Below the pieces are notes generated by a model. It saw only the letters and a program-made list of their open reading frames with translations. It did not search any database and was not told the DNA's origin. Positions 1 to 22,824 of a stretch of DNA of 40,743 nt are shown here, piece by piece. Both the position numbers and the translations under genes were made by a program. This stretch comes from Treponema sp. GTDB taxonomy: Bacteria; Spirochaetota; Spirochaetia; Treponematales; Treponemataceae. The DNA lies in NCBI GenBank assembly GCA_018385315.1, contig JAHAZJ010000141.1:1-40743 (forward strand). Direction: 5' to 3'. How positions within the stretch are numbered: the stretch's first letter is position 1; every line of letters begins with the position of its first letter.

Positions 1-379
1 GAATAAAATTAATTGATTCTGTAGAACATACCATAAAAACTTTATCTTCAAAACGACAAATATATATGCCCTTAATTTTATCTTTCTGATTAAATGAAAA
101 CAATTGAAAAAAAGGAACCATTTCAGAATTTGTAGTAAAAGAATACCATTTATTGGGATTATTTATAGTTCCATCCCAAAAATCATTAGTAGAAATGGAA
201 GAAATAATTGAAATACCGTCAAATCCAACAGAATTAGTTATTAAATAATTGTTGTCAACTTTAGAAAACACAGCACACAAAGAAATATTAAATTTCTTTG
301 TGAACTGAATAAATGAGATTGTTTTTTCTGATAACTTTTTTTCTTGAGAAAGACTTAATGTTCTAGATAGAAGTCCCAT
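1..379 (-). CDS. Conserved hypothetical protein, 3' part cut off by window edge
   Basis: An open frame runs from an ATG at 379 to the left edge, giving 126 residues and no stop. The start overlaps the stop of the upstream giant acidic gene as TAATG, so the two are probably translationally coupled and in one operon. The visible part begins MGLLSRTLSLSQEKKLSEK and continues with alternating hydrophobic and polar stretches (for example an ISLCAVFSK segment and a KGIYICRFEDKVFMVC segment) that read as a cytosolic alpha/beta fold. There is no signal peptide or clear membrane helix. I do not recognise the family. The reading frame and the coupling are seen directly; any link in function to the acidic protein is inference from the coupling. 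Confidence 0.7.
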   Translation of the reverse strand, partial: MGLLSRTLSLSQEKKLSEKTISFIQFTKKFNISLCAVFSKVDNNYLITNSVGFDGISIISSISTNDFWDGTINNPNKWYSFTTNSEMVPFFQLFSFNQKDKIKGIYICRFEDKVFMVCSTESINFI

Positions 380-3216
380 TAATTAAGTCCTAGTTCATTA
401 AACAATTTTTTATATGTTATGAACTCTTCAGATTTTGCAAATTCAACAATCTTATCTTCTGGAAGGTTTTCAAGAAGCTGATCCATATAAAGAAGAACTG
501 ATTTTATATCTTTTTTCAATTCTGAATTTTCTTCTGCATCAGTCATTTCTGCAGGAAGTGTATCATCTGATGTAAGATAATTAATGTTGCTATCTGTTAA
601 AACTGGTTTTACATTTCCAGAATCAAATAAGTTGTCATCTGATTCAGGTTCTTCTGGAAGAATATTTTCTTCAATTAATGGTTCTTCTTCCGAAACAACA
701 TTAGTTTCTTCTGGAACAATGAAATCACTTGTTGTAGCAAAATCATCTTCAACTGTTGCAAATGAATCTTCTTCAGCAACTAATGAATCATCTTCAGCAA
801 CAATTGAATCATCTTCAACTGTTGCAAATGAATTTTCTTCAGCAACAAATGAATCTTCTTCAACAGGAAGGAAGGTGTCTTCTACAGCTTCAAAAGTATC
901 CTCTTGTGCTGGTTCTGATTCAAAAACATCTGTAAATGTTACTGATTCATTTGAAGGTTCTTCAGTGATTGTATCATCAGAAACTAAGGCTTCTTCAACC
1001 TGGGTAGAATCATCACCTGGAATTTCTTCAATTGAGTCTTGTACATCATTAATACTAGAAAAATCTTCTAAAGGATTTTCAGCAAAAGAATCTGCATAAG
1101 GTTCTGCAGTTTCAATTTCCTGAGAATTCAAAGTCTGGTCTGTTAATGTTGGTTCAGAAGAATCTGAAATAGAATCCATAAAATCAGATGATGAAGATTC
1201 TACCAGAATATCGTCTTTTTCAATTTCAATTTCTTGTGGTAAATCATCATTTTCTGAAATATCAATAGAGTCATTTTCTTCCATTGTTATATCAATGTTT
1301 GGTTCTTCAAGATGCTCTTCTGTAAAGTTTAATGATAATTCTTCATTAACAGGAGTTTCAAAATTAATTTCTTCATCAGAAACGGAAGTTTCTTCTATAA
1401 AATCAACAGGTGTTTCCTCAACAACTTCAACAGGAGTATCTTCAATAATATCAGCAGCTGTATCCTCAACAACTTCAACAGGAGTATCTTCAATAATATC
1501 AGCAGCTGTATCCTCAAGAATTGGAGTTTCTTCAACAATTGTTGAATCTTCAATAGCATCAACTACAGGTTCAGCTTCTACTTCAGTTGTTTCTATATCA
1601 CTTGTAATAGAAATTGTTTCATCATCAGGTTCTTCTACAATATCAATTCCTAAATTTTCAGCTGTTTCAAATTTAGGTTCTGCTTGTTCTTCATCACTAA
1701 GAGATGCAGATGTCATAATATTTGAAAGTTCATCTGTTGAAAGTGCAATTGTATCATCTGTATCATCACTTCCAAAGAATCCACCTTCATCTTTGTTTTC
1801 AATAATACCTAAATCTTCTTCAGTTTCTTGTGATTTAGGCTCTTTATTTTTCATTTCATTAAGATTTGATTTAAGTGAGTTAATTTCATCTTTAAGATTT
1901 GAAAGATCTGCAACAATTTGCTGTAAAAGAGACATATCAACAGCAGCAGTACCAGGTGCAGGTGTTGTATTTTCCTGTTCAATACCTGTATTATCTGATA
2001 CTTCTGAGTCTGTGTTTTTAATTTCGTTTACAAATGGAGCTGAAACAGTATTATCATTTTCTACTGTTAAATCATAGTCAATTTGCTGTTCTTTAATTTT
2101 TGAAGCTTCAATATCTTGTGTAACTGGTGTTTCTTCTGCATTAGCGTCAATTCCAAAATCTGAAAGATCAATTTCCTCAGCTTCGAAAGATTCAGATGAA
2201 TTAAGGGAAACTGTACTGTCAACAGTATTGGCTTCTTCCATTTCTGACTCTTCAATATCAGCGTCTTCATCAAAATTGTCATTTTCAATAGAGAAATTAG
2301 TTTCTGTTTTTACAGTGTCTGCTGAAGAATCAAATGTTATATCCATTTCTAATGGTTTTTCATCAATAATTTCTTCTTCTTTTTCTTTGTCTACATCAAA
2401 TCCACCATCAATAAAATCATCAAGGGAGATTTCTTCTGAATTTGATGTTGTAGGAATTGCTGATGGAGAATTTGGTGCTCCTGGTTCATATCCATTGTTA
2501 CCAGCTGCTACAGATTCGTCGGAGAATCCGCCATCCATAAAATCATCTAGCGAGATTTCTTCATCTTCACTGCTAGTTTCTTCTGTAACAGGAGTGTCAT
2601 CTAAAGAGAGAGAATCATCAGAAATAGTTGTATCATCCAAAGAAAGGGAATCATCCAAAGAGAGTGAATCATCCAAAGAGAGTGAATCATCCAAAGAGAG
2701 TGAATCATCAAAACTTAAAGAATCATCTAAAGAGAAAGAATCGTCAGAAATTGGTGTATCATCCAAAGAAAGGGAATCATCTGAAACTGGTGTTTCTTCT
2801 GAAGGAGGGGCATCGGTAACAGGTGTTTCATCCAATGATAGAGATTCATCAAAATTGAAAGAATCTTCTATATCTGTATTTGACAGTTCAGATTCTGTTT
2901 CAATTAAATCCGCACCGTTTGTAATATTCATAAGTTCATCAGAATTTAGTGTTGTATCATCGCTCTGAGATAATGATGAATCATCAGATAAAGAATCTGC
3001 ATCATTAAAAATATCATCCAAATCAGAGGTTGAAAAATCAGTTTCTGTATCAAAATCAGGCAAATCTAAGGCATCAGAAAAATCCAATGAATCAGAAATG
3101 TCTGTATCGTTAATTTCAGTTTCAACTTCAGGTGTATCAGTTGTTTCAGAAGGATTGTTTTTAACCCAAACTCCGTAACTGTCTAATTCGTTTGTATTTT
3201 CTGTTGAATCGTTCAT
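379..3216 (-). CDS. Giant acidic, repeat-rich, largely disordered protein
   Basis: This encodes 945 residues extremely rich in Asp, Glu, Ser and Thr, with almost no aromatic core, so most of it is probably disordered. The start is the ATG at 3216, preceded by a strong AGAGGGGAT ribosome site; an upstream in-frame extension to 3291 lacks one. Visible parts: six DDSLSL-type hexapeptides near residues 160-195; two near-identical EEISLDDF(M/I)DGGF motifs near residues 219 and 261, with a looser copy near 345; a probable coiled coil near 424-457; a GGFFGSDDTDDTIALS-type motif near 477-495; two copies of a 16-residue Val/Glu/Thr repeat near 567-598; and an ordered, helical last 47 residues ending KKLFNELGLN. 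There is no signal peptide, so it is probably cytoplasmic. The conserved islands and C-terminal helix suggest a scaffold, but no family function is known to me. Confidence 0.85.
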   Translation of the reverse strand: MNDSTENTNELDSYGVWVKNNPSETTDTPEVETEINDTDISDSLDFSDALDLPDFDTETDFSTSDLDDIFNDADSLSDDSSLSQSDDTTLNSDELMNITNGADLIETESELSNTDIEDSFNFDESLSLDETPVTDAPPSEETPVSDDSLSLDDTPISDDSFSLDDSLSFDDSLSLDDSLSLDDSLSLDDSLSLDDTTISDDSLSLDDTPVTEETSSEDEEISLDDFMDGGFSDESVAAGNNGYEPGAPNSPSAIPTTSNSEEISLDDFIDGGFDVDKEKEEEIIDEKPLEMDITFDSSADTVKTETNFSIENDNFDEDADIEESEMEEANTVDSTVSLNSSESFEAEEIDLSDFGIDANAEETPVTQDIEASKIKEQQIDYDLTVENDNTVSAPFVNEIKNTDSEVSDNTGIEQENTTPAPGTAAVDMSLLQQIVADLSNLKDEINSLKSNLNEMKNKEPKSQETEEDLGIIENKDEGGFFGSDDTDDTIALSTDELSNIMTSASLSDEEQAEPKFETAENLGIDIVEEPDDETISITSDIETTEVEAEPVVDAIEDSTIVEETPILEDTAADIIEDTPVEVVEDTAADIIEDTPVEVVEETPVDFIEETSVSDEEINFETPVNEELSLNFTEEHLEEPNIDITMEENDSIDISENDDLPQEIEIEKDDILVESSSSDFMDSISDSSEPTLTDQTLNSQEIETAEPYADSFAENPLEDFSSINDVQDSIEEIPGDDSTQVEEALVSDDTITEEPSNESVTFTDVFESEPAQEDTFEAVEDTFLPVEEDSFVAEENSFATVEDDSIVAEDDSLVAEEDSFATVEDDFATTSDFIVPEETNVVSEEEPLIEENILPEEPESDDNLFDSGNVKPVLTDSNINYLTSDDTLPAEMTDAEENSELKKDIKSVLLYMDQLLENLPEDKIVEFAKSEEFITYKKLFNELGLN
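1421..1516. repeat. Exact 48-bp tandem duplication in the acidic gene
   Basis: Two identical 48-bp units lie head to tail at 1421-1468 and 1469-1516. On the minus strand each encodes 16 residues (EDTAADIIEDTPVEVV in one register). The two copies show no mismatch, which points to a recent duplication or ongoing homogenisation. Confidence 0.9.
2633..2740. repeat. 18-bp tandem repeat array, six units, in the acidic gene
   Basis: Six consecutive 18-bp units encode the hexapeptide register SLDDSL on the minus strand. The three central units (2651-2668, 2669-2686, 2687-2704) are identical, TCATCCAAAGAGAGTGAA on the plus strand. Flanking units differ at a few bases. The period is a multiple of three, so gain or loss of units keeps the frame. 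Confidence 0.9.
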
Positions 3217-3312
3217 AGTTATCCCCTCTAATGGAAAATGAAAATATATATCTTTATTTAATATCGGAAGAAATTCTTGAAAACAACACAAATAAATTTA
3301 TATTTTTTTTTT

Positions 3313-3321: not shown

Positions 3322-3353
3322 TACTTTTTTATTTCAGAAAATATAAATAATTA

Positions 3354-3361
3354 GCCGATAA
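3354..3361 (+). promoter_or_regulatory. GCCGATAA box, sigma-28-like -10, before FtsB-like gene
   Basis: GCCGATAA is an 8/8 match to the textbook sigma-28 -10 element and ends 10 bases before the ATG at 3372. The matching TAAA -35 is not at the usual 15-base spacing (that position reads CAGA; GAAA lies 13 bases upstream). In a sequence this size one such match by chance is not surprising. A TATAAA at 3342-3347 is an alternative housekeeping -10. Confidence 0.3.
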
Positions 3362-3371
3362 AAAATTAATC

Positions 3372-3872
3372 ATGAAATTTGCTAAGTATTTATTTGTTTT
3401 ATTAGTTGGAACTTTTGTTTATGTATCGCTGTCTCTCACAGTAGGGCAGAATAGTATTTCTTGTTTTAGAGCGATGGAAGAACAAAAAAGAATTGTAAGC
3501 AAACAGAAATCTGATTTGCAGAATATAAATAATGAATTAACGCTGGAATTAACTGCTCTTAAAAAAGATAAAGCAATAATTGCAGCCTATGCAAGAAAGT
3601 TAGATTATGTTACTGATGGTGAAAAATTAATTAAAATTACAGGATTAAAGCCAGTAACAAACACATTATATGAAACAGGTTCTGTGGTTAGACATGTTGA
3701 ACCAGAATATGTTTCTGAAGGTTTGTGTAAAATTTCTGGTGTATGTGCAGGTTTGCTTCTATTAATTATTTTAATGTTTGCAGATGTTAAAGCTGGAAAT
3801 TTTTCATCAACAAAAAATACAAAACAAACTGTTGTAAAAGGTATTCCAATTTACGATGTTCAACAAATCTAA
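3372..3872 (+). CDS. FtsB/DivIC-like septum formation protein with two membrane helices
   Basis: This encodes 166 residues. The N-terminal membrane helix (about residues 5-24) is followed by a coiled coil rich in Gln, Lys and Leu (about 36-66) and then YARKLDYVTDGEKLIKI, which matches the (A)R..LGYV..GE signature that follows the coiled coil in FtsB/DivIC proteins. That family bridges division proteins at the septum in the periplasmic space. A second hydrophobic helix near 121-138 is unusual, because classic FtsB/DivIC crosses the membrane once. No ribosome binding site is visible before the ATG. The 3' end overlaps the convergent secreted-protein gene by four bases (CTAA). The family call is from motif and architecture only; a general coiled-coil membrane protein remains possible. 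Confidence 0.65.
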   Translation: MKFAKYLFVLLVGTFVYVSLSLTVGQNSISCFRAMEEQKRIVSKQKSDLQNINNELTLELTALKKDKAIIAAYARKLDYVTDGEKLIKITGLKPVTNTLYETGSVVRHVEPEYVSEGLCKISGVCAGLLLLIILMFADVKAGNFSSTKNTKQTVVKGIPIYDVQQI

Positions 3873-9531: not shown

Positions 9532-9732
9532 ATGATTGATGTAATGCGGTTAGATGGGAAAATTTATTGGGTGAATCCGCACATGATTGAAAGTATGGAA
9601 ACTACTCCTGACTTGACTTTGACTATGTTGTCTGGTCGAAAAATCATTGTCAAAAATTCCCCAAAAGAACTTATAGATAAAATTATTGAATATCGAAGAA
9701 ATATCGGTATTGAGAGACAAGAGGTCTTGTAA
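9532..9732 (+). CDS. flbD: FlbD family flagellar protein (small)
   Basis: This encodes 66 residues. The ATG at 9532 is chosen because AGGGTGGAA lies just upstream; a TTG at 9499 falls inside the leader repeat and has no ribosome site. The sequence fits the short FlbD/SwrD family (MIDVMRLDGKIYWVNPHMIE, then a GRKIIVKNSPKELIDKIIEY helix). In Bacillus SwrD increases flagellar motor power, and the family sits directly before motA in spirochaetes and firmicutes, as here. The stop overlaps the motA start (TAATG). It is the first gene of the long flagellar operon. Confidence 0.88.
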   Translation: MIDVMRLDGKIYWVNPHMIESMETTPDLTLTMLSGRKIIVKNSPKELIDKIIEYRRNIGIERQEVL

Positions 9733-10514
9733 TGGATATAGCTACAATAGTTGGTATTATTGGTGGTGCTGCCATGATTGTTATGTCAGTATTAACATCT
9801 GGTGGTTCTATGAAGGGGATTTTGGACCCTGCATCTGCAGCCATGACAATTGGTGGTTCATATTTTGCCATGTTTATTGCCTGTCCTTTAAAAAAGGCAT
9901 TGGGTATGTTTAAAATTATGGCAAGAGCTTTTAAAATTCCTGATTTTGGTGAAAAAAATATTGTAATCAATATGCAAGCTTTGTCTGAAAAAGCTCGTCG
10001 TGAAGGTATTCTTGCTTTGGAAGATGGACTTGATGATTTGGAAGATCCTTTTATGAAAATGGGACTTCGTCTTGTAGTAGATGGTACTGATGGAAACATT
10101 ATTCGTGCAATTATGGAAAACGAAATGAACCAGACAGAAGCACGTCATATGGAATGGATTGGTATTATTAACGCCTGGTCTGGTTTTGCACCAGGTTTTG
10201 GTATGATGGGTACTGTAGTAGGTCTTATTGGTATGTTAAACAACCTGGAAGATAAGTCTTCTCTTGGTCCTAACATGGCCGTTGCCTTAATTACAACCTT
10301 GTATGGATCTATGCTTGCAAACTGGTTGATTGCTCCATTTGCTTCAAAACTCTTAGCACATAATGCACAGGAAATGCGATCAAAAGAAATGATTATTGAA
10401 GGTGTACTTGCTATTCAAGCTGGTGAAAACCCTCGTATTATGGCTCAAAAACTTCTTACTTATCTTGATCCAGTAACAAGAAAAGCAATTGAAGCTGATG
10501 TTCTTAAAGACTAA
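9732..10514 (+). CDS. motA: Flagellar stator protein MotA
   Basis: This encodes 260 residues. MotA forms the ion channel of the stator with MotB and pushes on the rotor. Four membrane segments are visible: about 5-22, 33-50, then a pair after the large cytoplasmic loop near 146-168 and 180-200. The loop holds RREGILALEDGLDDLEDPFMKMGLRLVVDG, and the channel-lining segment reads GFAPGFGMMGTVVGLIGML, equivalent to the conserved Pro region of the family. The start codon shares a base with the flbD stop. Confidence 0.96.
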   Translation: MDIATIVGIIGGAAMIVMSVLTSGGSMKGILDPASAAMTIGGSYFAMFIACPLKKALGMFKIMARAFKIPDFGEKNIVINMQALSEKARREGILALEDGLDDLEDPFMKMGLRLVVDGTDGNIIRAIMENEMNQTEARHMEWIGIINAWSGFAPGFGMMGTVVGLIGMLNNLEDKSSLGPNMAVALITTLYGSMLANWLIAPFASKLLAHNAQEMRSKEMIIEGVLAIQAGENPRIMAQKLLTYLDPVTRKAIEADVLKD

Positions 10515-10539
10515 ATAATTTAGGGAAATATAAAACGCT

Positions 10540-11268
10540 ATGGGAAAAAAAGCTAAAGAGCCTGAGAAACCATCCAACGCCTGGCTAGGTACTTATGGTG
10601 ACATGATTACACTTATGTTGTGCTTCTTCGTAATGTTATACAATCCTTCGGAAGTTGATGTTACACAGTTGGCAACAATTACTCAGAGTTTACAGATGCA
10701 GGAAACAGATTCAACATCTGGTGGTTTGTCATTGTCTGCAGGTATGCTTTCTGACCTTGGTAATAACATAAACTCTTTACCATCTACAGAAAAGGGAAGG
10801 TCTTTAGGTACTGCAAAGAAAAAAGCAGTTAGTCTTTTTGCTCCTGATAATAAATCAAACAGAATTACAGTAACAAGTGATGAAAGAGGTCTTGTCATTA
10901 CATTGCTTTCTGATAATTTCTTTGAACCGGGAAGTGCGGAATTAAATATTTCCGAAACAAGAGAAACTTTACTTCGTCTTACAGAATTTTTTAATTCTCC
11001 AGAGGTGGCTGACAGAAGATACAGAATAGAAGGTCATACAGATGATACTCCAGTTCCTTCAGATTCAAAATTTCCTAGTAACTGGGAACTTTCTGCTGCA
11101 CGTGCCGCTAATGTTTTACATTATCTTGCCGATTATGGAGTAAAGGAAAATAATTTTGCCATTGCTGGCTATGCTGATACACGACCGAAGTTTACAAATG
11201 ATACTCCGGAAGGTCAGGCATATAACAGACGTGTTGATATTATTATTCTAGACGAAGGACATTTTTAA
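10540..11268 (+). CDS. motB: Flagellar stator protein MotB
   Basis: This encodes 242 residues. The short cytoplasmic N-terminus leads to one membrane helix with the ion-carrying Asp in the [16 protein letters not shown] segment, then a plug/linker, then an OmpA-like peptidoglycan-binding domain (about 110-240) with the [12 protein letters not shown] and [16 protein letters not shown] motifs and NRRVDI near the end. MotB anchors the stator to the cell wall. The helix and following SEVD resemble sodium-type PomB proteins as well as MotB, so ion choice is left open. Ribosome site GGGAAAT lies 17 bases upstream, farther than usual. Confidence 0.95.
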
Positions 11269-11304
11269 TGTTATCATATATTGTATTATTTGCTGGAGGG
11301 GAAA

Positions 11305-11865
11305 ATGGCAGATGATGAAGAATTAGGCCTTGATGATGGTGGTTCAGCTGGAGCTGCACCTGCAAAAAAAAGTGGATTATCAGGTCTTTTACCAAATTTA
11401 TTAAAATGGATTATTATTGGTGTTGCAGCTATTATTGTTATTGTTGTAGTTTCTGTTATTACAGTTAAAATCGTAACGAAAAATAGCACAAAGGATTCTT
11501 TTAATCCTGCAAGCATCACTGAAGAAGAATCTGGTCCACGGGAATCATACGATTGGTATAAATCAATTGGTACAATCCAGACATTTACAAGTGACAATCC
11601 TCCTGCAACAGTTAGAGTAAATGTGTTGTTGGGCTATAAAAAAGAAGATAAAGCCTGTGCAACAGAAATTACTAGTTTTAGTGTTGAAATCAAAGAATTT
11701 TTAAGAAAATATTTTAGATCTAAATCAGCAAGTGAATTAAAGGTTGCTGAAAATGAGGCTAAATTTAAGATTGAAATTAAAAACGGTATTAATGATACTG
11801 TTTTAAGTAGTTCAAAAATTCGTTCAATAAGTTTTGATCAGCTTGATGTAGTTGAACAGAACTAA
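11305..11865 (+). CDS. fliL: Flagellar basal body protein FliL
   Basis: This encodes 186 residues from the ATG at 11305, which follows GGAGGGG directly; an in-frame earlier codon at 11281 has no such site. A short acidic/Gly/Ala N-terminus leads to one membrane helix (about 33-56) and a periplasmic domain beginning near TSDNPPATVRVNVLLGYKKE, typical of FliL. FliL forms a ring around the stator and supports motor torque. Position between motB and fliM is the canonical spirochaete order. Confidence 0.9.
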   Translation: MADDEELGLDDGGSAGAAPAKKSGLSGLLPNLLKWIIIGVAAIIVIVVVSVITVKIVTKNSTKDSFNPASITEEESGPRESYDWYKSIGTIQTFTSDNPPATVRVNVLLGYKKEDKACATEITSFSVEIKEFLRKYFRSKSASELKVAENEAKFKIEIKNGINDTVLSSSKIRSISFDQLDVVEQN

Positions 11866-11880
11866 AAAAGGTGGAAGTGC

Positions 11881-12918
11881 ATGAATGAGGTTTTATCTCA
11901 GGATGAAATTGACCAGCTTTTAAGTGCCATCAGTTCCGGTGATAACGAAACTGATGACTTTAAACCGGTTAATAATGCCCGTAAAATTAAAATATATGAC
12001 TTCAAACGTCCTGACAAATTCTCTAAGGAACAGCTTCGTACAGTCTCAAATATGCATGAGACTTTTGCACGTTTAACTACAACCTCCTTATCTGCACAGT
12101 TGCGTTCTTTGGTTCATGTTCATGTTGCTTCTGTAGACCAGCTTACTTATGAAGAATTTCTCCGTTCTATTCCAACACCTACAACATTGGCTGTTATTAA
12201 TATGGATCCGTTGAACGGAAGTGCAGTATTGGAAATTGATCCTGCCATTACATTTTGTATGATTGACCGATTGTTTGGTGGTAGAGGTGCTACTTCTGGA
12301 AATAAAAATCGGGATTTGACAGATATTGAACAGGAAGTAATGGAAGGTGTTATTGTTCGTATTTTGGCAAATATGCGAGAAGCTTGGACCCAGGTTATTG
12401 ATTTACGTCCTCGTTTTGCTCAAATTGAAACAAATCCACAGTTTGCACAGATTGTTCCTCCAACAGAAATGGTTGTTTTAGTAACATTGGATACAAAAGT
12501 AGGTGATGAGGAAGGTATGATGAACTTCTGTATTCCATACCTTACTATTGAACCTATTATTTCAAAATTATCTACTCAGTTCTGGTTCTCATCAGTTCGT
12601 AGAAGTTCAACAACACAGTACCTTGGTACTATTAAAAATCAACTTTCTGCTGTTGATATGGATGTTGTTGCAGAAATTGGTACAATCAATCTTCCAATTA
12701 GGGATGTTTTATCTCTTCGTTGTGGAGATGTTGTGCGTTTATCAAGTATAAAAGTTGGGGATCCATTAACCCTCAGCGTTGGAAATAAAAAGAAATTTTA
12801 CTGTCAGCCAGGTGTAGTTGGTAAAAAAATGGCAGTACAGCTTACAGGAAAAATGGAAGATCAGGATTCAGAAGAATTTGAAGAGCTTTCTGTAGAAGGA
12901 GACGATACATATGAGTGA
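11881..12918 (+). CDS. fliM: Flagellar switch protein FliM
   Basis: This encodes 345 residues. The N-terminal [13 protein letters not shown] is the CheY-P-binding motif. The CheC-like middle domain includes [17 protein letters not shown] and the [12 protein letters not shown] motif, and the C-terminal SpoA domain ends near the Glu/Asp-rich tail. FliM is the middle layer of the C-ring and receives the chemotaxis signal. A good AAGGTGGAAG ribosome site precedes it. It overlaps fliY by eight bases. Confidence 0.97.
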
Positions 12919-14146
12919 TGGTGCTATCTCACAAGACGAAATTGATGCTTTACTTTCTGGAGTTTCAATGGATGGTCTTAATTCAACTGGTCATGTTGGC
13001 AACGGTCCAAGTTACAGCATCGATGTACCAACAATGCAGAAACTGGCTGAAGATTTAAGAGAAAAACTTGAAGGAAATATTAATCAATATACTGGAGCCT
13101 CATTTAAAGTAGAAAAACCTGTTGTTGAATTGTCAGATCGTGATAGAGTTTTATCTAAACTGCCAGAAGTTGTTATTTCTGTTTCTATTGATTATACAGA
13201 AGGTGCAAAAGGAAGTCATATGTATCTTATGTCTTCTGATTTTGCTCTTAAAGTTTTTTCTTTAGTAAATAAAGAAGATACTACAGATGTTGACGATATG
13301 GTTCTTTCTGTTGTATCTGAGTTAGTTGCAACTCATGTTAGTGCCCAGATAAATGTTCTTGATTCAACAGGGAAATTACCAGGTTTAGCAAATGGTTCGG
13401 CACAATGTTCAAATGAGTCTAAAGCAATGATTATGTTCCCTCAGGGGGATTTTATACTTACAGGATATCCAATTACTTTGGATGGAAGTGCTTTTACTTT
13501 ATGGGAAATTCTTGGTGGCGATGTTTCTGAAAAAATGTCTAATGCATTAGGTGGAAATAAAGCAGATGATATTCCAATGATGGAAGCAGCTCCTATGATG
13601 CCAAATAACCAGATGAATATGGGAAATCAGATGGGAATGGGTGGCATGCAAATGGGTGGCCAAATGAACATGGGTGGAATGCCAATGGGAAATCCTATGG
13701 GAAATCCTATGGGAAATCCTATGGGAATGAATAATCAAATGGCTATGGGTGGAATGCAGCAGATGCCAAATATGGGAATGGGTATGGGAATGCCTGCTAA
13801 TATGGGTATGAACATGGGAATGAATGTACCAAATGTTCAGTCTCTTTCTTATCCAAGTCTTACTAATTCTATGAGTTCTTCTGAGCAGGGAAACATCGGT
13901 TTAATTATGGATGTTTTCATGGAAATGACTGTAGAATTAGGTCGTACAAAAAAATCTATTAAGGATATCTTAGGTATGGGTGAAGGTACAATTATTGAAT
14001 TGGACAAGCTTGCCGGTGAACCAGTTGATATTCTTGTAAATCATAAACCTATTGCAAAGGGTGAAGTTGTAGTCATTGATGAAAACTTTGGTGTTCGTGT
14101 AACAGAAATCCTTTCTCCAATGGAACGTGTTAATGATTTAAACTAA
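12911..14146 (+). CDS. fliY: Flagellar switch protein FliY/FliN with Met-rich linker
   Basis: This encodes 411 residues. The N-terminus [13 protein letters not shown] repeats the FliM-type CheY-binding motif. A CheC-like middle domain covers about 40-215, and the C-terminal SpoA (FliN) domain covers about 325-405 ([28 protein letters not shown], split here by family core residues). Between them residues 223-304 are an extraordinary Met/Gly/Asn/Pro linker with 30 methionines in 82 residues. FliN/FliY forms the base of the C-ring and docks the export ATPase complex. The fusion of CheC-like and FliN domains is the FliY type known from Bacillus and spirochaetes. The start lies eight bases inside fliM. 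Confidence 0.94.
13685..13720. repeat. 12-bp tandem repeat, three units, in the fliY linker
   Basis: ATGGGAAATCCT occurs three times exactly in a row (13685-13696, 13697-13708, 13709-13720), encoding MGNP each time. The surrounding ATGGG(A/T)ATG-type codons form a looser repeat from about 13610 to 13820. Confidence 0.95.
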
Positions 14147-14155
14147 AACCAATTT

Positions 14156-14164
14156 AAGGGTGGG
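14156..14164 (+). promoter_or_regulatory. Ribosome site that favours the TTG start of fliO
   Basis: AAGGGTGGG, the same GGTGG-type site used by flbD, fliM and flhA, ends four bases before the TTG at 14169. A GTG at 14160 would lie inside this site. Confidence 0.55.
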
Positions 14165-14168
14165 AAAA

Positions 14169-14780
14169 TTGGCTACATTAAAAAAATCTCTTCTTATTTT
14201 TGTAATTCTATTTGGACTTACAAATGTGTTGTTTTCACAGAATAATAACGATTCATTAAATGTTGAAAATTCAGTTTCTGTTTCAGAGGATTCAACATTA
14301 CTTCAAGATGATTATTTCTCGTCTAATAATGAAACCAGCAATTTAAATTTGAAACAGCCTTCTACAGCATGGACTTTCATAAAAATGATTTTGTTTTTAT
14401 GTCTTGTGGTTGCTGCTATTTACGCTGTAATGTGGTTTTTTAAGAAAAAGGTTAATAATACAAAAAGTGATGATAATTTTTTGCGCAGAGTATCATCATT
14501 AAATATTGGTCCTGGAAAATCTGTTGAAATTGTTACATTGCTTGATAATGCATATATATTAGGTGTTACTGATTCAAATATAAATGTAATTGATCAGATT
14601 GAAGATAAAGAATTGATTGAAGCACTAAATCTTAATTTTGATAAAAATCAAAATGTTAAAAAACCAATGAATTTTGCAGATGTTCTTGATATTTTTATGC
14701 CTAATGGACCTAGAAATAAAAATATTTATGAAGATGAAGAAAGAAAAGTAAATAATCTTTCACGAAAAAATAAAGAATAG
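14169..14780 (+). CDS. fliO: Flagellar biosynthesis protein FliO (FliZ)
   Basis: This encodes 203 residues from the TTG at 14169. An N-terminal signal-like helix (MATLKKSLLIFVILFGLTNV) is followed by a Ser/Asn/Asp-rich stretch, a second membrane helix near 70-92 (IKMILFLCLVVAAIYAVMWF) and a cytoplasmic FliO domain beginning FLRRVSSLNIGPGKSVEIVTL. FliO chaperones FliP assembly in the export gate. The position directly before fliP supports the call; the sequence itself is weakly conserved, as usual for FliO. Confidence 0.82.
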   Translation: MATLKKSLLIFVILFGLTNVLFSQNNNDSLNVENSVSVSEDSTLLQDDYFSSNNETSNLNLKQPSTAWTFIKMILFLCLVVAAIYAVMWFFKKKVNNTKSDDNFLRRVSSLNIGPGKSVEIVTLLDNAYILGVTDSNINVIDQIEDKELIEALNLNFDKNQNVKKPMNFADVLDIFMPNGPRNKNIYEDEERKVNNLSRKNKE

Positions 14781-14788
14781 GATTAGGT

Positions 14789-15610
14789 ATGAAAAAAAAT
14801 CGTTTTAGTTTTATTCTTATAATTTTAATCAGCATTTTTATCACCTCTCCTGTTGTTGCTCAGTCAAATTTTCCTAATGGGTCTGCACAGGGTACAACAG
14901 AAATGAATCCTAATGTTAGACCTATTCAGGTTCCAAATGTTGCAGTTCAGATTACCCAGCCAGAAAGTGGAAATGAGGTTGCTTTTTCTGTCCGATTGCT
15001 TCTGCTATTAACAGTATTAACTTTAGCTCCAAGTATTCTTATTCTTGTTACTTGTTTTTTAAGATTTTCAATTGTTCTGGACTTTATAAAAAGAGCTTTG
15101 TCTTTACAACAGGTTCCTCCTACTGCCGTTCTTAATGGAATTGCTTTTTTTATGACTATATTTGTTATGTGGCCTACCTTTACAAATATCTATGAAAAAT
15201 CTTTAAAACCTCTTTCTAATAATGAAATTAATATTCAGCAAGCTTATTCTGCTGCGGAAGAACCAATTCGTGAATTTATGTTTATTCAAATGTCTGATGA
15301 TACATCATATATTTCAAATTTCATGGGAATGGCAAAATTACCAAAGCCTCAGACTAGAAAAGATGTTCCAACTTATATTTTAATCCCAGCATATATTGTT
15401 CACGAATTAACGGTTGCATTTAAGATTGGTATTTTTCTGTATATCCCGTTTATTATTATTGATTTGGTTGTTGCCAGTATCCTTATGTCATTGGGTATGA
15501 TGATGCTTCCGCCTGTTCAAATTTCTATGCCTTATAAATTGATTTTGTTTGTTTTAATTGATGGATGGGGATTACTTACTCAGCAATTATTTGCATCAGT
15601 AATCAGATAG
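14789..15610 (+). CDS. fliP: Flagellar export gate protein FliP
   Basis: This encodes 273 residues. A cleavable signal peptide (about 1-25, ending VVAQ) precedes the FliP core. Family landmarks are LAPSILILVTCFLRFSIVL, QVPPTAVLNGIAFFMT and, near the end, YKLILFVLIDGWGLL. FliP forms the five-subunit core of the export gate with FliQ and FliR. Confidence 0.96.
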   Translation: MKKNRFSFILIILISIFITSPVVAQSNFPNGSAQGTTEMNPNVRPIQVPNVAVQITQPESGNEVAFSVRLLLLLTVLTLAPSILILVTCFLRFSIVLDFIKRALSLQQVPPTAVLNGIAFFMTIFVMWPTFTNIYEKSLKPLSNNEINIQQAYSAAEEPIREFMFIQMSDDTSYISNFMGMAKLPKPQTRKDVPTYILIPAYIVHELTVAFKIGIFLYIPFIIIDLVVASILMSLGMMMLPPVQISMPYKLILFVLIDGWGLLTQQLFASVIR

Positions 15611-15620
15611 GAGAAGAAAT

Positions 15621-15890
15621 ATGTCTATTGGTGAAATTGTTACATTAATGAGAGGTGCAGTAACACAAACTATTTCTTTAATTGCACCAGTTCTTATAGT
15701 AGCTCTTATAGTTGGTCTTATTATTGCAATTTTACAAGCTGTAACTTCTATTCAGGAACAAACATTAACTTTTTTACCAAAGCTACTTGCAATTCTTTTT
15801 ATGATTGCTTTGTTAGGTGGAACAATGATGGCATCTTTAAGTGAATATACAATTAGATTATTTAATCAGATTCCAAATTTGGCACGGTAA
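15621..15890 (+). CDS. fliQ: Flagellar export gate protein FliQ
   Basis: This encodes 89 residues with two membrane helices (about 17-39 and 52-74) and the family segment IAILQAVTSIQEQTLTFLPK between them. FliQ packs around the FliP/FliR core of the export gate. An AGGAGAAG ribosome site lies seven bases upstream. Confidence 0.96.
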   Translation: MSIGEIVTLMRGAVTQTISLIAPVLIVALIVGLIIAILQAVTSIQEQTLTFLPKLLAILFMIALLGGTMMASLSEYTIRLFNQIPNLAR

Positions 15891-15905
15891 AAACTGGAAT
15901 AATAG

Positions 15906-16712
15906 ATGTTTGACGCAGTATTACAAAGAGCTCCATTATTTCTCTTAATTGCAATTAGAGTTTTTGCTTTTCTAATGACAGTTCCTATGTTTTCTATGCG
16001 AACTGTTCCAAGAACTGCAAAAATTGCCTTAGCAGGATATATGGCTTTTTTTGTAATGGGAACGGTAGAATTTCCATCTTATGTTCCTTATATTTCTGGG
16101 GATGGTGCTTTTTCTATATATTTTATTTTACTTGCCTTAGGCGAAGGTTTAATAGGTATTATTCTTGGTTTTTATGTAACAATAATTTTTTCTGCTTTTA
16201 GTACAGCTGGTCAATTTACTGCTTTTCAAATGGGATTTAGTGCTGCAAGTACCTATGATGCATTAGCTCAGGTTGAAAATCCCTTAATGGGACAATTTTT
16301 TAATTTTGTTGCTACATTGATTTTTTTACAAAGTAAATGGTTTCAGAAGTTGTTTTTGCAGGGACTTGTAACTAGTTTTCAGACTATTAATGCAATAAAT
16401 ATTGTGCAGAATACAGATGGATTTATAAAGTTCATGCTTTCAGGTCTTACAAAATTATTTGCTGACGCTCTTGTAATTAGTTTGCCCTTAATGGGTACAT
16501 TGCTTTTAATTTCTGTCTGCACTGGTTTATTATCTAAAGCTGCTCCTCAAATAAATCTTCTTTCAGAAGGGTTCCCAATTATGATTTTGGTATCCTTTTT
16601 TCTGATTGCAACAATATTACCATATATGTGTGATTTCTTTATTGGTTCTTTTGCGAAAGGTTTTGATATTCTGCAACAGTTATTTATTAATACAGGAGGA
16701 AGTATAAAATAA
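15906..16712 (+). CDS. fliR: Flagellar export gate protein FliR
   Basis: This encodes 268 residues with six hydrophobic segments. Landmarks are the N-terminal RVFAFLMTVPMFSMRTVPRT, the LGEGLIGIILGF segment and the GQFTAFQMGFSAASTYD loop. FliR completes the FliP5-FliQ4-FliR1 gate. The stop shares a base with the flhB start (TAATG). Its own ribosome site is weak. Confidence 0.95.
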   Translation: MFDAVLQRAPLFLLIAIRVFAFLMTVPMFSMRTVPRTAKIALAGYMAFFVMGTVEFPSYVPYISGDGAFSIYFILLALGEGLIGIILGFYVTIIFSAFSTAGQFTAFQMGFSAASTYDALAQVENPLMGQFFNFVATLIFLQSKWFQKLFLQGLVTSFQTINAINIVQNTDGFIKFMLSGLTKLFADALVISLPLMGTLLLISVCTGLLSKAAPQINLLSEGFPIMILVSFFLIATILPYMCDFFIGSFAKGFDILQQLFINTGGSIK

Positions 16713-17773
16713 TGGCTGCTGAAGATGAAGGAAGAACGGAGGAACCTTCCGAGTATAAACTTGAAAAGGCCCGTAAAGAAGGCCGTGTCCCAAAAAGCCC
16801 TGAAGTAAGTGCTGCTTTAGTTCTTATACTTTCAGTTGTTACATTGATTTTTCTTGGAAAGTGGATTTTTTACCAGTGTTTATCCTTATATCAATTCTAT
16901 TTTGAACGATGTGGACAATATGATTTACAGGAACCGGCATTAATTACATTTTTTCTTTCTACATTTTTAAAAATTGTTATTCCAATTGCTATAATTGCTG
17001 CAGCAGGCGGATTTTTTGGTAATATTGTTCAAACAAGAGGCATTGTATTTAGTTTAAAACCTATTTCTCCAAAATTTTCAAATATAGTTCCTAAATTTGG
17101 AGAATTTTTTAAAAAAACAATTTTTTCTGCAAAGGGGTTATTTAATATTGCAAAATCTTTGGGAAAAGTTGCTGTTATTGTAATTATTGCTTTCATTTTT
17201 ATTAAAGGTGATCTTTTTGAGTTATTGGAAATTATAAAAAATGGGCAGATTGTTGTTGCAATTGGTAGAATAGCAACAATGGCAGCTCAGATTCTTTTGT
17301 TAGTTGCCTTCATTTTTCTTGTAATAAGTATTCCTGATTTTTTTATTCAGCGTCATGAATTTAGAGAATCAATGAAAATGACAAAACAGGAAGTAAAGGA
17401 AGAATATAAAGAAATGGAAGGAGACCCTGAAGTTAAAGGTCGACTTAAGCAAATGCAACAACAATTATTATCACAAAATATTCCAAAAGCTGTATCTGAA
17501 TCAGATGTTGTTATTACCAACCCTACACATTTTGCGGTTGCATTAAAATATGATCGATTTGAATCAGATGCCCCAAAAGTTACTGCAAAAGGTGAGGATG
17601 AATTAGCTTTTACAATTAGACGAATTGCAAATGAAAATAATATTCCTATTGTGGAAGATAAACCAGTTGCACGTGGACTATATACAGAAACGGAAGTTGG
17701 TGATATAATACCAGAAACGTATTATAGAACTATTTCTATTATTTATTCACATTTGAAAAATTATTCTAAATAA
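16712..17773 (+). CDS. flhB: Flagellar export substrate-specificity switch FlhB
   Basis: This encodes 353 residues. The N-terminus EGRTEEPSEYKLEKARKEG is the FlhB signature, followed by four membrane helices and a cytoplasmic domain with the self-cleaving loop NPTH at residues 270-273 (VVITNPTHFAVALKY). FlhB switches export from rod/hook to filament proteins after autocleavage between Asn and Pro. A strong AGGAGGAAG site precedes it within fliR. The length and all landmarks are normal. Confidence 0.97.
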   Translation: MAAEDEGRTEEPSEYKLEKARKEGRVPKSPEVSAALVLILSVVTLIFLGKWIFYQCLSLYQFYFERCGQYDLQEPALITFFLSTFLKIVIPIAIIAAAGGFFGNIVQTRGIVFSLKPISPKFSNIVPKFGEFFKKTIFSAKGLFNIAKSLGKVAVIVIIAFIFIKGDLFELLEIIKNGQIVVAIGRIATMAAQILLLVAFIFLVISIPDFFIQRHEFRESMKMTKQEVKEEYKEMEGDPEVKGRLKQMQQQLLSQNIPKAVSESDVVITNPTHFAVALKYDRFESDAPKVTAKGEDELAFTIRRIANENNIPIVEDKPVARGLYTETEVGDIIPETYYRTISIIYSHLKNYSK

Positions 17774-17800
17774 ACTTTGTAGATTGCTGGGTGGGGACTA

Positions 17801-19909
17801 ATGGCAAACGAAAGTCGAGGGAAATTTCTAGATTTTATTTTAAATAACTATGTAGCAGTTACTCTAATTATTGTTATTGCTTTTATAGTTATCCCAATCC
17901 CTAAATTACTTATTGATTTACTCATGATTTTAAATCTTGCATTTGCTTTTGTTGTTTTGCTTGCTGTTATTTATACTCCAAGAGCATCTGATTTTCAAAC
18001 TTTCCCAAGAATTATTCTTTTTCAGACCATTTTAGGAATGGGAATTAATATTGCATCTACAAGACTTATTCTTTTCAATAGTGGTGCTGATGCAAATGCT
18101 CAGAGTGATATGGTTCAAGCTTTTGCTAATATTGTTGCAAAAAATAACCTGGTTGTTGGTTTTGTAATCTTTATTATTATTATGGTTTTCCAGGTTGCAG
18201 TTGTAACAAAAGGTGCTGGCCGTATTTCAGAAGTTGCTGCTCGTTTTAGTTTGGATTCTATGACTCAAAAATATTTTGATGTGGATAACCGATTGAATTC
18301 TGGAATTATTACAGATGAAGAAGCAAGAGATTTGAAAGATGCAATTCGTAGAGAAGTTGATTTCTATTCAAATATGGATGGTGCGTCTAAATTCGTTTCT
18401 GGAAATGTTAAAGCAGGTATTTTTGTTACTGTTGTAAACCTGCTTGGTGGAGTTATTTCGGGATCTGTTTATTTTGACCTTGATATAGGACAAGCTTTTA
18501 GCAGTTATGCCTCTCTTACAATTGGTGATGGTTTACTTTCACAAATGCCAGCATTAGTTATTTCAGTTGCTACAGGTTTACTTGTAACTGGTAATAAATC
18601 TGATGAAAGTTTACCAGAACAATTGGCAAAGGATTTTACTCGTTCAGGCTATATTTACGAAATTGTTGGAGCTGTTCTTGTATTAATTGGAATTGCACTT
18701 AAAGTCTGGCTTGTAATTCCAGTTGGTGCATTATTCATTTTTATTGGATTCAGAATGACTGGCTCTCAAGAAAAACAGGCTGTTGCTCAACAGGAAGAAG
18801 AAAAATCAAAAGAACAGCAACAGAATTCTCTTGCAAATCAGGATTCAGAAAAAATTGCTTTATTAGATTCTCTTTCTTTGGAATTGGGATTTGGCTTGAT
18901 TCCTCTTGTTAGAAAAGAAAAGGGGGCAGAATTGCTTGAACGTATTACCCGAATCAGAAATGAAGCAAAACTTGATATGGGATTTGTTATCCCAAAAATT
19001 CGAATTCAGGATAATATGACTCTGGATCCAAATGATTATAGTTTTAAAATTAAAGGAATTGAAGCTGGTCGTGCAAATATAAGACTTGGTTATTATATGT
19101 GTATGGATACTGGTTCAGTTATAAATCCATTGAAAGGTGAAAAAACAAAGGATCCTGCTTTTGGTATGGATGCAATTTGGATTCCTGAAGATCAAAGAGC
19201 AGAAGCTGAAGAAGCGGGTTACGTAGTTGTAGACCCACCAACAATTATTGCAACCCATATTACAGAAATTATTCGTTCTCATGCTGCAGAAATGCTTGGT
19301 CGTGAAGAAGTTGCATCTATCATCAATACTGTAAAAGAGAAAAATCCTGTTCTTGTTGATGAAGTTTTGAATACTGCTAAGTTAACTTATGGACAAATTG
19401 AAAAAGTTTTGCAAAATCTTTTGGAAGAAAATGTTTCTATCAGAAATATTATTACAATTTTGGAAACTCTTGCAAATTATGCCAATGTTTCAAAGAATCC
19501 TTGGGATTTAACAGAAAAAGTTCGTGAGGCATTAGGATTACAGATTTGTATGCAATATGCAGATCCTGATGATAAAAAACTTCGGGTTATTCCTGTTTCT
19601 CAGGATTATTCAGAAATGATTCAAAATCATGCTTATTATCCACAGGATGGTTCAAGACCACAAACTTTGCTGGATCCTGTAGACAGACGAAATTGGCTTA
19701 ATAGTGTAAGTGGTGCAATTGCCCGGGTAAAAGATAAGAATTTACAGCCAATTTTAATATGTCCTGCCCAAATTCGACCATTGGTAAAAGTTTCAATAGA
19801 TCGAGATATGCCTGGAATTATAGTTCTTTCTGATGCAGAAGTTAATGCGGCAGGAAGAAATGTTACTGTAGAGTTTATTGATCAGGTTTCTGAAAATGAG
19901 GGAGCGTAG
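17801..19909 (+). CDS. flhA: Flagellar export protein FlhA
   Basis: This encodes 702 residues. The N-terminal membrane half (about 1-330, around eight helices) contains the conserved FHIPEP loop VVTKGAGRISEVAARFSLDSM and NMDGASKFVSGN. A Gln/Glu-rich linker (about 326-350) leads to the cytoplasmic domain that binds export chaperones. FlhA is the nonameric ring of the export gate and is thought to couple ion flow to export. The ribosome site GGGTGGGGA is the GGTGG type that recurs in this operon. Confidence 0.97.
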   Translation: MANESRGKFLDFILNNYVAVTLIIVIAFIVIPIPKLLIDLLMILNLAFAFVVLLAVIYTPRASDFQTFPRIILFQTILGMGINIASTRLILFNSGADANAQSDMVQAFANIVAKNNLVVGFVIFIIIMVFQVAVVTKGAGRISEVAARFSLDSMTQKYFDVDNRLNSGIITDEEARDLKDAIRREVDFYSNMDGASKFVSGNVKAGIFVTVVNLLGGVISGSVYFDLDIGQAFSSYASLTIGDGLLSQMPALVISVATGLLVTGNKSDESLPEQLAKDFTRSGYIYEIVGAVLVLIGIALKVWLVIPVGALFIFIGFRMTGSQEKQAVAQQEEEKSKEQQQNSLANQDSEKIALLDSLSLELGFGLIPLVRKEKGAELLERITRIRNEAKLDMGFVIPKIRIQDNMTLDPNDYSFKIKGIEAGRANIRLGYYMCMDTGSVINPLKGEKTKDPAFGMDAIWIPEDQRAEAEEAGYVVVDPPTIIATHITEIIRSHAAEMLGREEVASIINTVKEKNPVLVDEVLNTAKLTYGQIEKVLQNLLEENVSIRNIITILETLANYANVSKNPWDLTEKVREALGLQICMQYADPDDKKLRVIPVSQDYSEMIQNHAYYPQDGSRPQTLLDPVDRRNWLNSVSGAIARVKDKNLQPILICPAQIRPLVKVSIDRDMPGIIVLSDAEVNAAGRNVTVEFIDQVSENEGA

Positions 19910-19912
19910 AAA

Positions 19913-21133
19913 ATGCCAATTGAAAATGCAATAAGAAAAAAGATTGAAGGCGCTACATTAAACGAGTGTAAAGAAAAATTATTTAAATTATATGGTACTG
20001 GTTATACAATTGTAGAAAAATTTGTTGATTTTCGTCCTTCAGGATTTTTGGGATTAAAACAGAAACCCGTTACTGTTGTTACCTATGTTTTAAATAATGA
20101 TACTACAGTCGAAACAGTATTCAAGAAAACACAAACTGAAAGTGAAAAGCTTGAAGAAAACAGAAAGGCAATTATAGAAAAGCAGAAAGATATTTTATTG
20201 AATGCCCAAATGAATAAAATGGCTTCTATGATGGAGCAATTAAATGAAAAAATAGATAATTTTTCCACACAACCTGCAGTTTCTTCAGATACTCATGAAA
20301 CTATTTCAAGAATAGAAGAATTGCTTTCCGAAAATGAATTTTCTTTTTCATATATAAAAATGATTACGGATAAGATTCGTTCTCAGTTTTCTCTTGAACA
20401 ATTAGATGATTTTAGACTAGTTGAACGTTATGTTGTTGATTGGATTGGTGAATCAATCGAAATCAAAAAAGATAAACATGTTCGTCCTCCTAAAGTTATT
20501 ATTATTGTTGGACCAACGGGGGTTGGAAAAACAACTACAATTGCAAAGCTTGCTGCAACTTCAATTCTTGATGCAAAGAATAATGGTATGAAGAAACCTG
20601 AGCTTTGTATTGTTACAATTGATACTATGCGTGTCGGTGCATTGGAGCAGCTTGCCAAATTTGGTGAAATTTTAGGCAAAAATGTTTTAAAAGCTGAAAC
20701 TGCTGAGGATGTGGCAGAGATTTATTCTGATTATAAAGAACATGTGGATTACATCTATATTGATACAAGTGGTTATAGTCCTAATGATTCAAATCATATT
20801 GGTGAAATGAAAAATATTCTTGATGTAAAAATGAATCCTGAAATTTTTCTTGCTGTAACTGCAAGTACAAAAGCTAGTGATTTACAGAATATATTCAGAA
20901 ATTTTGAGCCATTTGCCTATGAGTCTGTAATTATTACTAAGTTTGATGAATCTCAATGCTACGGAAATATAATTAGTGTACTTTGGGATAGACATAAGAG
21001 TATTTCTTACATCACTGATGGACAGGGTGTACCAAGAAATCTTAAAAAAGCAAATATTGTAGATATTTTAATAAATTTAAAAGGATTTGATATTGATAGA
21101 GTTCATATCGAAGACAAATTTGGAGAACAATAA
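19913..21133 (+). CDS. flhF: Flagellar SRP-like GTPase FlhF
   Basis: This encodes 406 residues. An N-terminal domain of about 60 residues carries a GFLGLKQKP motif. A Gln/Glu/Lys helical linker follows (about 70-140), then the NG domain with P-loop GPTGVGKTT (200-208), [23 protein letters not shown] and IITKFDES. FlhF positions and numbers flagella together with FlhG. The stop shares a base with the flhG start. Its ribosome site lies inside the end of flhA. Confidence 0.96.
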
Positions 21134-22011: not shown

Positions 22012-22080
22012 AGCATAAAAAAAAGTGCTATGATTTTTTAAGTTTATAAGTTATAATAAACTATTATAGTGGGAGGTATA

Positions 22081-22824
22081 ATGAAGAACATAAAATTTGT
22101 TTCTTTTTCTGCTGGTGCAGGATTCATATTATCTCTTACTTTCGGTATTTTTTCAAAATCAGGTATATTAAAAGTTTTTCTTACTGCCTTGGTTTTTGCA
22201 TTAATTTTTGCTGTTCTTGGTTTTGGATTAACATTTGTTTATGAAAAATTTCTTTCATTAGATTCAAGTGAAATTGATTCAACTAAAAGTACAGAATCAA
22301 AAACAGTTTCATCTAGTGTAGGAAATAATGTTGATATTGTAATTGAGGATCAGGAATTAGAAAGGAGTGGCAGCAATAATAGATTTAATGTTGGTGAAAA
22401 CAGGTCAATGTTAAATACAAGCGATGTTGTTACTTCTAATAATTCTTCATCTGTTAATAGTAGTATTGCTGAGGACTCAAAATCAAACTTTGTTCCTGTC
22501 CGTAATCTTGAAACATTAACAAATATTTCTGGAACAGAAGCTGTTAAGCCATCAGCTGTAGCGAATAAGTCAGCAGAAATATCTGAATCTTCCTCTTCAA
22601 AAAATGATGATTTAGATGTATTGCCGGATTTTGGAAATTTGGGGATGCCTGCAACTCCAATGTCGAGTTTCAGTTCTTCTGCAAATGATTCAATTGATGA
22701 ATTCTCTGATACTGAAAGCTCATCTGTATATACAAGCAAAAGAAATGATGTAGATACAGATAAGTTTCAGAATACTGAGTTAATTGCAAAAGCAATAAGT
22801 ACAGTTTTATCGGATGAAAGTTAA
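22081..22824 (+). CDS. Membrane protein of unknown function between flhG and whiG
   Basis: This encodes 247 residues from the ATG at 22081, directly after GGGAGG; an earlier GTG is inside that site. Two membrane helices at the N-terminus (about 7-24 and 29-51) are followed by about 165 residues rich in Ser, Asp, Asn and Glu that look disordered, and by a short conserved-looking C-terminal helix, NTELIAKAISTVLSDES. I recall an unnamed gene at the same place in Treponema pallidum, but cannot compare the sequences here. A membrane tether with a flexible arm is the plain reading; a role in flagella is inferred only from position. Confidence 0.75.
   Translation: MKNIKFVSFSAGAGFILSLTFGIFSKSGILKVFLTALVFALIFAVLGFGLTFVYEKFLSLDSSEIDSTKSTESKTVSSSVGNNVDIVIEDQELERSGSNNRFNVGENRSMLNTSDVVTSNNSSSVNSSIAEDSKSNFVPVRNLETLTNISGTEAVKPSAVANKSAEISESSSSKNDDLDVLPDFGNLGMPATPMSSFSSSANDSIDEFSDTESSSVYTSKRNDVDTDKFQNTELIAKAISTVLSDES

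Follow-up and report, generated by a model that had tools for sequence, protein, structure and literature searches.

What does the 945-residue acidic protein encoded near the start of Treponema sp. contig JAHAZJ010000141.1 do, and does it stand alone? We analysed positions 1 to 40,743 of this contig (assembly GCA_018385315.1; 40,743 nucleotides, hereafter the window) together with other genomes of the Spirochaetota. The gene, which we call the hub gene, is single-copy, is kept across the phylum and is in no family database searched. Its product is very likely linked to flagella; rather than an isolated curiosity, it is probably a so far undescribed accessory of the spirochaete flagellum. We tentatively favour a late flagellar cytoplasmic hub for flagellin handling, a reading drawn from sequence comparison. 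A preliminary description of the window had reported an open reading frame here and proposed a scaffold. The frame is real and its coordinates are right, the strand being minus (Table 1); a scaffold would be compatible with the flexible chain and its islands, although the gene is half of a conserved pair, not isolated.

The hub protein consists of 31% aspartate plus glutamate, contains neither arginine nor cysteine and has a computed net charge of about -269; its calculated isoelectric point, near 4.05, is the calculator's floor. No signal peptide or membrane segment is visible in its sequence (N-terminus MNDSTENTNELDSYGVWVKNNPSE, remainder without a hydrophobic segment). In a full-length AlphaFold model built from 32 orthologues, the predicted local distance difference test score (pLDDT) was below 50 for 796 of 945 residues, bearing out the expectation of a mostly disordered protein. 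The C-terminus, of which the last 47 residues had been called ordered and helical, contains about 48 ordered residues in helices 894-916, 920-927 and 930-941, with pLDDT of 74-80 in the full-length model and 91-92 in a domain model. Modelled alone, the last 60 residues formed three helices, with 34 residues at pLDDT of at least 90. The EEISLDDF-type islands near residues 219 and 261 were found again, as was the degenerate copy previously placed at 345 (EEIDLSDF, Table 1). The EEISLDDF pair repeats 8 residues exactly, against a maximum of 7 in 200 shuffles of the same composition; the longest exact repeat outside the SLDD tract is 16 residues. The DDTIALSTDEL island (TIALSTDELSNI, residues 489-500) is likewise ordered in the model, with a helix at 494-503 inside DDTIALSTDELSNI. 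Absent from the preliminary description were a second, weaker copy of the DEL motif (DTTLNSDELMNI, residues 87-98), where residues 96-99 form a short stretch above pLDDT 50, and a helix at residues 424-457, the best-predicted internal part (pLDDT 75-81). The picture of an acidic, flexible chain, folded at one end and dotted with a few conserved peptide islands, is thus supported.

Conservation separates the local from the general features of this chain. In the Treponema orthologue alignment, invariant or nearly invariant positions cluster in YGVWxK (14-19), helix 424-457, GFF...DEL (479-500) and the C-terminal domain. Islands are indeed conserved across orthologues, but EEISLDDF is local: of 70 full-length Treponema-scan loci, 29 have it once or more and 17 at least twice. 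The phylum-wide island is IALSxDELxNI, present in 66 of the 70. We therefore rejected EEISLDDF, restricted to close relatives, as the key feature. The motif [IV][ATS]L[ST]x[DE]EL..I matched 180 times in 156 orthologues versus 0.18 expected in shuffles, with 1-11 copies per motif-bearing protein; its only match in 417,000 residues of neighbouring open reading frames fell in a frameshifted orthologue piece. A profile of the motif matched 152 of 183 orthologues, several of the others being cut by contig ends. The C-terminal domain was detected in 210 of 296 Spirochaetota genomes by profile and in 202 by single-sequence search, standing at the exact C-terminus of long acidic open reading frames. 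Its phylum consensus is VLxYLDxLLExLPEdKIkEFAxSEyFdxYKkLFeELGi, and divergent acidic proteins of Brachyspira type end in ...SYFKNIVEKLPxDxLNEFSKTEFYDIYSxLFRKFGE.

Neither the C-terminal domain nor the IALS motif matched a Pfam, NCBIfam or PDB family, and the window protein and its C-terminus had no NCBIfam match at E <= 1. Pfam searches with 30 members of the C-terminal alignment gave scattered weak matches, none consistent. Against the PDB, the domain had no sequence match and no Foldseek match at E <= 0.001, and its best structural Z of 5.6 is at an uninformative level for helical bundles. The C-terminus thus matched no family with a known unrelated role in these databases. The smallest form seen, 207 residues at L280 (genome G267), consists of the YGVW motif and the C-terminal domain and has no partner gene downstream. 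Separately, an unrelated protein (L259; G064, C1:2240466-2240528) that has a GAF-like end and is anchored in the membrane by its N-terminal part has VIALNMDELSNI in its acidic linker (E 0.002), so an IALS-type peptide may be a docking site for more than one protein.

By eye, the IALS motif resembles the N-terminal CheY-binding peptide of FliM/FliY: the pattern L-S-x-D-E-[LI]-[DN]-x-[IL]-L is common to spirochaete FliM N-termini (a 14-residue example is in L205). The hub protein could accordingly be a multivalent binder of CheY-type response regulators, its IALSxDELxNI peptides mimicking FliM and buffering CheY-P. We did not adopt this reading of the motif, which we consider highly improbable: the motif profile scores against FliM at background level (E about 2200), a comparison limited by the shortness of the peptide, LSxxEL often serves as a helix cap, and Borreliaceae (which we take to be family f7) have FliM and flagella but no hub protein. 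The hub copies also differ from the FliM/FliY peptide in sitting in a disordered chain, up to eleven of them together.

The link to flagella comes from the company that the gene keeps. Directly downstream, usually within 0-20 bp, lies a partner gene that is nearly constant across loci; in the window its ATG overlaps the hub stop codon by one base. One or two Maf-type proteins (PF01973) come next in nearly all Spirochaetia loci, and Maf is downstream in four families of other classes (f19, f24, f25, f37); one such neighbour outside Spirochaetia also has the Maf N-terminal domain. These flagellin glycosyltransferases of the Maf/MptE type are not homologous to the hub protein, which has no enzyme domain. 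The gene for FliS stands 3-39 bp upstream of the hub gene in nine loci (families f30, f40, f47), that for FliM about 2.6-2.9 kb downstream in six (f32, f49, f51, f54), and in Brachyspira-type genomes FliL and then FliM follow within 1.4 kb. By hand count, FliS, Maf, FliM or FliL is nearby in 11 of 28 families outside Spirochaetia, for which the binomial probability is 1e-13 to 1e-10 on an estimated chance of 1.4-3% per family, the families not being fully independent.

Co-occurrence points the same way. Among the same 296 genomes, FliM was found in 269, Maf in 252 and the C-terminal domain in 210, and Maf was present in 209 of the 210 domain-positive genomes (the exception is G267). In a class draw of 159 genomes, counted without three sub-threshold domain matches, 92 had domain and Maf, three the domain only (G267, G324, G351), four Maf only and 60 neither; Maf thus accompanies 92 of 95 domains. 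The domain is missing from the FliM-negative, flagella-less families f13 (presumably Sphaerochaetaceae), f56 and f62 and from G373, where a weak Maf-family match in one f13 genome (G278) is the sole exception to the absence of all. The FliM-negative genomes that keep the domain are G267 and incomplete metagenome-assembled genomes. Borreliaceae keep FliM and FliS and lack both Maf and the domain. This loss fits an unglycosylated flagellin, as Borrelia flagellin reportedly is according to Sterba 2008, cited in PMC6236881, and fits equally well the absence of sigma28 from the family (PMC11607428).

The latter connection bears on a further explanation, in which the hub protein would regulate the sigma28 regulon through a link to export or transcription, being a disordered protein like FlgM that was lost with sigma28 in Borreliaceae. 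A promoter-like element favours it: CCGATA[ATC] occurs on the sense strand upstream of 81 of 101 Spirochaetia hub genes, the longer CCGATAA precedes 47 of 101 hub genes versus 2 of 213 Maf genes, and the full two-part sigma28-like consensus scores at least 10 of 12 in 48 of 93 versus 4% of shuffles. In the window, only the -10-like half was seen and the -35 half was not recognisable. These counts do no more than suggest a sigma28-like promoter of the hub gene, given the weakness of the -35 half and the contribution of the divergent DivIC gene to the antisense signal. The disorder of the protein and its helical ends would also suit a FlgM-like regulator. FlgM is about 100 residues long, far smaller than the hub protein, which matches no Pfam family, FlgM included, and whose steady linkage is to the GAF/GGDEF partner and Maf, not to fliA; we regard this role as very unlikely. 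As a separate observation, GCCGATAA lies at 3330-3372 of the window, just upstream of the divergent DivIC/FtsB-like gene on the plus strand, and similar elements precede DivIC in other Treponema loci.

What, then, is the partner? Its proteins begin MGL[LR]xKA (MGLLxRA-type), often with more GLLxRA copies near the N-terminus, and GL[LR]xKA motifs occur at 1.09 per 200 residues there versus 0.05 further on. Outside Spirochaetia, Pfam describes it as GAF-(GAF)-degenerate GGDEF. The shorter Treponema form had no Pfam match and aligned by profile to the GAF/GGDEF form with an hhalign probability of 89 and E of 2.4e-6 in a single comparison. The copy numbers of the hub and partner motifs showed only a weak correlation, uncorrected for phylogeny (Spearman rho 0.27 to 0.40, p about 0.03), and we did not adopt co-evolution of the two motifs. 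Partners at L221, L097 and L222 carry many tandem GLLxRA/GLMHRA repeats at the N-terminus, versus a single copy in most lineages.

The chief rival reading starts from this partner. The hub protein would be a landmark of the pole or basal body in the manner of HubP/FimV, an acidic tether that brings the partner's degenerate GGDEF to the flagellated pole through its conserved C-terminal domain, and the flagellin-gene neighbours would reflect co-regulation only. The partner is the most constant companion of the hub gene and has a degenerate GGDEF, it persists, apparently membrane-anchored, where Maf and FliS are gone, and FliM/FliL neighbours suit a basal-body role. A close formal parallel comes from Shewanella, where PdeB binds, through its inactive GGDEF domain, to the FimV domain at the C-terminus of HubP (PMC9061725). 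HubP/FimV shares with the hub protein a very large acidic chain, a small conserved helical C-terminal domain and, in that one studied case, an inactive-GGDEF partner. The Shewanella case is binding, whereas the hub-partner link is genetic linkage. The hub protein further differs in belonging to another phylum, in being linked to FliS/Maf genes and in lacking LysM or a membrane segment: no HubP-type LysM domain was matched in it by Pfam, and neither the protein nor its C-terminus matched the FimV C-terminal domain in NCBIfam (E <= 1). In addition, Borreliaceae are flagellated yet lack the hub protein, and co-occurrence is tighter with Maf than with FliM, so that we consider a landmark rather unlikely. 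If it were one, it would be a HubP-like polar organiser outside proteobacteria. PopZ of Caulobacter is comparable in that an acidic, disordered linker joins its short conserved motif at the N-terminus to a helical C-terminal region; it differs in length, at under 200 residues versus 945, and the 30 C-terminal alignment members gave no consistent Pfam match to the PopZ C-terminal oligomerisation domain.

In the flagellin-handling reading, a conserved three-helix C-terminal domain and 1-11 acidic IALSxDELxNI peptides are strung on a long, highly negative disordered chain, and the hub protein would work as a pair with its GAF/degenerate GGDEF partner. The pair would gather flagellin, its chaperone FliS and the Maf glycosyltransferase in the cytoplasm ahead of export, and the degenerate GGDEF would supply a regulatory or positional input; the islands would bind FliS, Maf or flagellin, and the C-terminal domain the partner. 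In C. jejuni, glycosylated flagellin is the form that FliS prefers (PMC5466977), so that a connection between FliS, Maf and the hub protein is plausible. In T. denticola, filaments cannot assemble without the glycan on the flagellins (PMC9481697). The papers found do not describe the cytoplasmic organisation of modification and export, and the hub gene, with its fixed partner and flagellar contexts, is a concrete candidate for organising them. A more specific version, which we find doubtful, is a spirochaete-specific two-protein system of flagellin maturation: IALSxDELxNI peptides would gather flagellin-chaperone and Maf complexes while a catalytically dead GAF/GGDEF protein held the C-terminal domain, so that the choice of flagellin to be glycosylated and exported would come under spatial or second-messenger control.

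Several observations weigh against flagellin handling. G267, G324 and G351 keep the domain without Pfam-detectable Maf or FliS and without the IALS motif; G324 and G351 have a divergent FliM (FliP is also present), and G267 has none. Their counterpart is G274, with Maf, FliS and FliM and no detectable domain. Brachyspira-type orthologues and some other families also lack the motif. At L290/L291 of family f58 (G324, G351), translations of the partner read as a membrane protein with a GGDEF-like C-terminus. The loss in Borreliaceae cannot single out Maf because sigma28 is missing too, and it is one evolutionary event. Finally, families f21, f34, f42 and f45 have the pair beside F1-ATPase genes, not flagellar ones. 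These F1-ATPase neighbours, DivIC in Spirochaetia and the presence of the gene in G267 without FliM, FliS or Maf would also suit a role unrelated to flagella (for example in cell division or envelope signalling), with the gene merely carried in flagellar loci. That it stands again and again, independently of lineage, by FliS, Maf, FliM or FliL and has been lost in several flagella-less lineages makes such a role quite unlikely. Family f58 has lost Maf, FliS and the IALS motif yet retains the partner, a hint, from too few cases to prove it, that the C-terminal domain belongs with the partner and the IALS motif with the handling of flagellin.

Table 1. Features of the window around the hub gene (positions in the window)
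Feature	Position	Strand	Basis or remark
Acidic hub protein gene, 945 residues	3216..379	minus	ATG 3214-3216, stop TAA 379-381
Partner gene (MGLLSRTLSLSQ...)	2..379	minus	Co-transcribed with hub gene; cut by contig end; relatives
Conserved C-terminal helical domain (residues 894-945)	382..537	minus	Models and phylum searches
Phylum-wide island GFF...TIALSTDELSNIM (residues 479-501)	1714..1782	minus	Alignment, profile, model
Long helix, probably coiled coil (residues 424-457)	1846..1947	minus	AlphaFold; I434 invariant in alignment
Degenerate island EEIDLSDF (residues 347-354)	2155..2178	minus	Sequence
Island EEISLDDFIDGGF (residues 261-273)	2398..2436	minus	Sequence
Island EEISLDDFMDGGF (residues 219-231)	2524..2562	minus	Sequence; short helix 224-227 inside first EEISLDDF (AlphaFold)
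Low-complexity SLDD tract (residues 123-218)	2563..2850	minus	Sequence
Weak first DEL motif copy DTTLNSDELMNI (residues 87-98)	2923..2958	minus	Alignment, model, sequence
N-terminal motif LDSYGVWVK (residues 11-19), conserved within Spirochaetia	3160..3186	minus	Y14, G15, V16, W17, K19 invariant
Shine-Dalgarno-like GAGGGG	3223..3228	minus	Sequence; 7-12 nucleotides 5' of hub ATG
Sigma28-like -10 element CCGATAT	3261..3267	minus	45-51 nucleotides before ATG
DivIC/FtsB-like gene, divergent, shares intergenic region with hub gene	3372..3872	plus	Sequence, Pfam
Flagellar operon motA, motB, fliL, fliM, fliY ... flhF	9732..21133	plus	Names partly from reading translations

The flagellar operon of the window, 6.5 kb from the hub gene, is context outside the hub-partner pair. 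Three long open reading frames face the hub gene on the plus strand (584-1099, 1295-2077 and 2228-2968); we rejected them as genes, codon bias explaining them as a serine-rich mirror of aspartate and glutamate codons. Between flhG and a sigma factor gene, positions 22069-22824 encode a small membrane protein with a long serine/asparagine-rich tail, for which no confident family was found.

The neighbour at 3869-4855 matches NCBIfam TP0183_fam (named as a DNA metabolism protein) and, with SmpB, anchors synteny to the corresponding region of T. pallidum. In genome G094, the orthologue (L078) lies at the matching place by the TP0183-family and smpB genes; it is presumably T. pallidum TP0179, the number being inferred from gene order. 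It has about 600 residues (627 when counted from the first start codon) and a single IALTNDELNNI copy, and it lacks EEISLDDF. The preliminary description knew of no described function, and we found none in the literature on TP0179, its neighbours and the T. pallidum interactome. The likely orthologue of the hub protein is still called a 'hypothetical protein', and is among the T. pallidum genes with lineage-fixed changes (PMC11371664).

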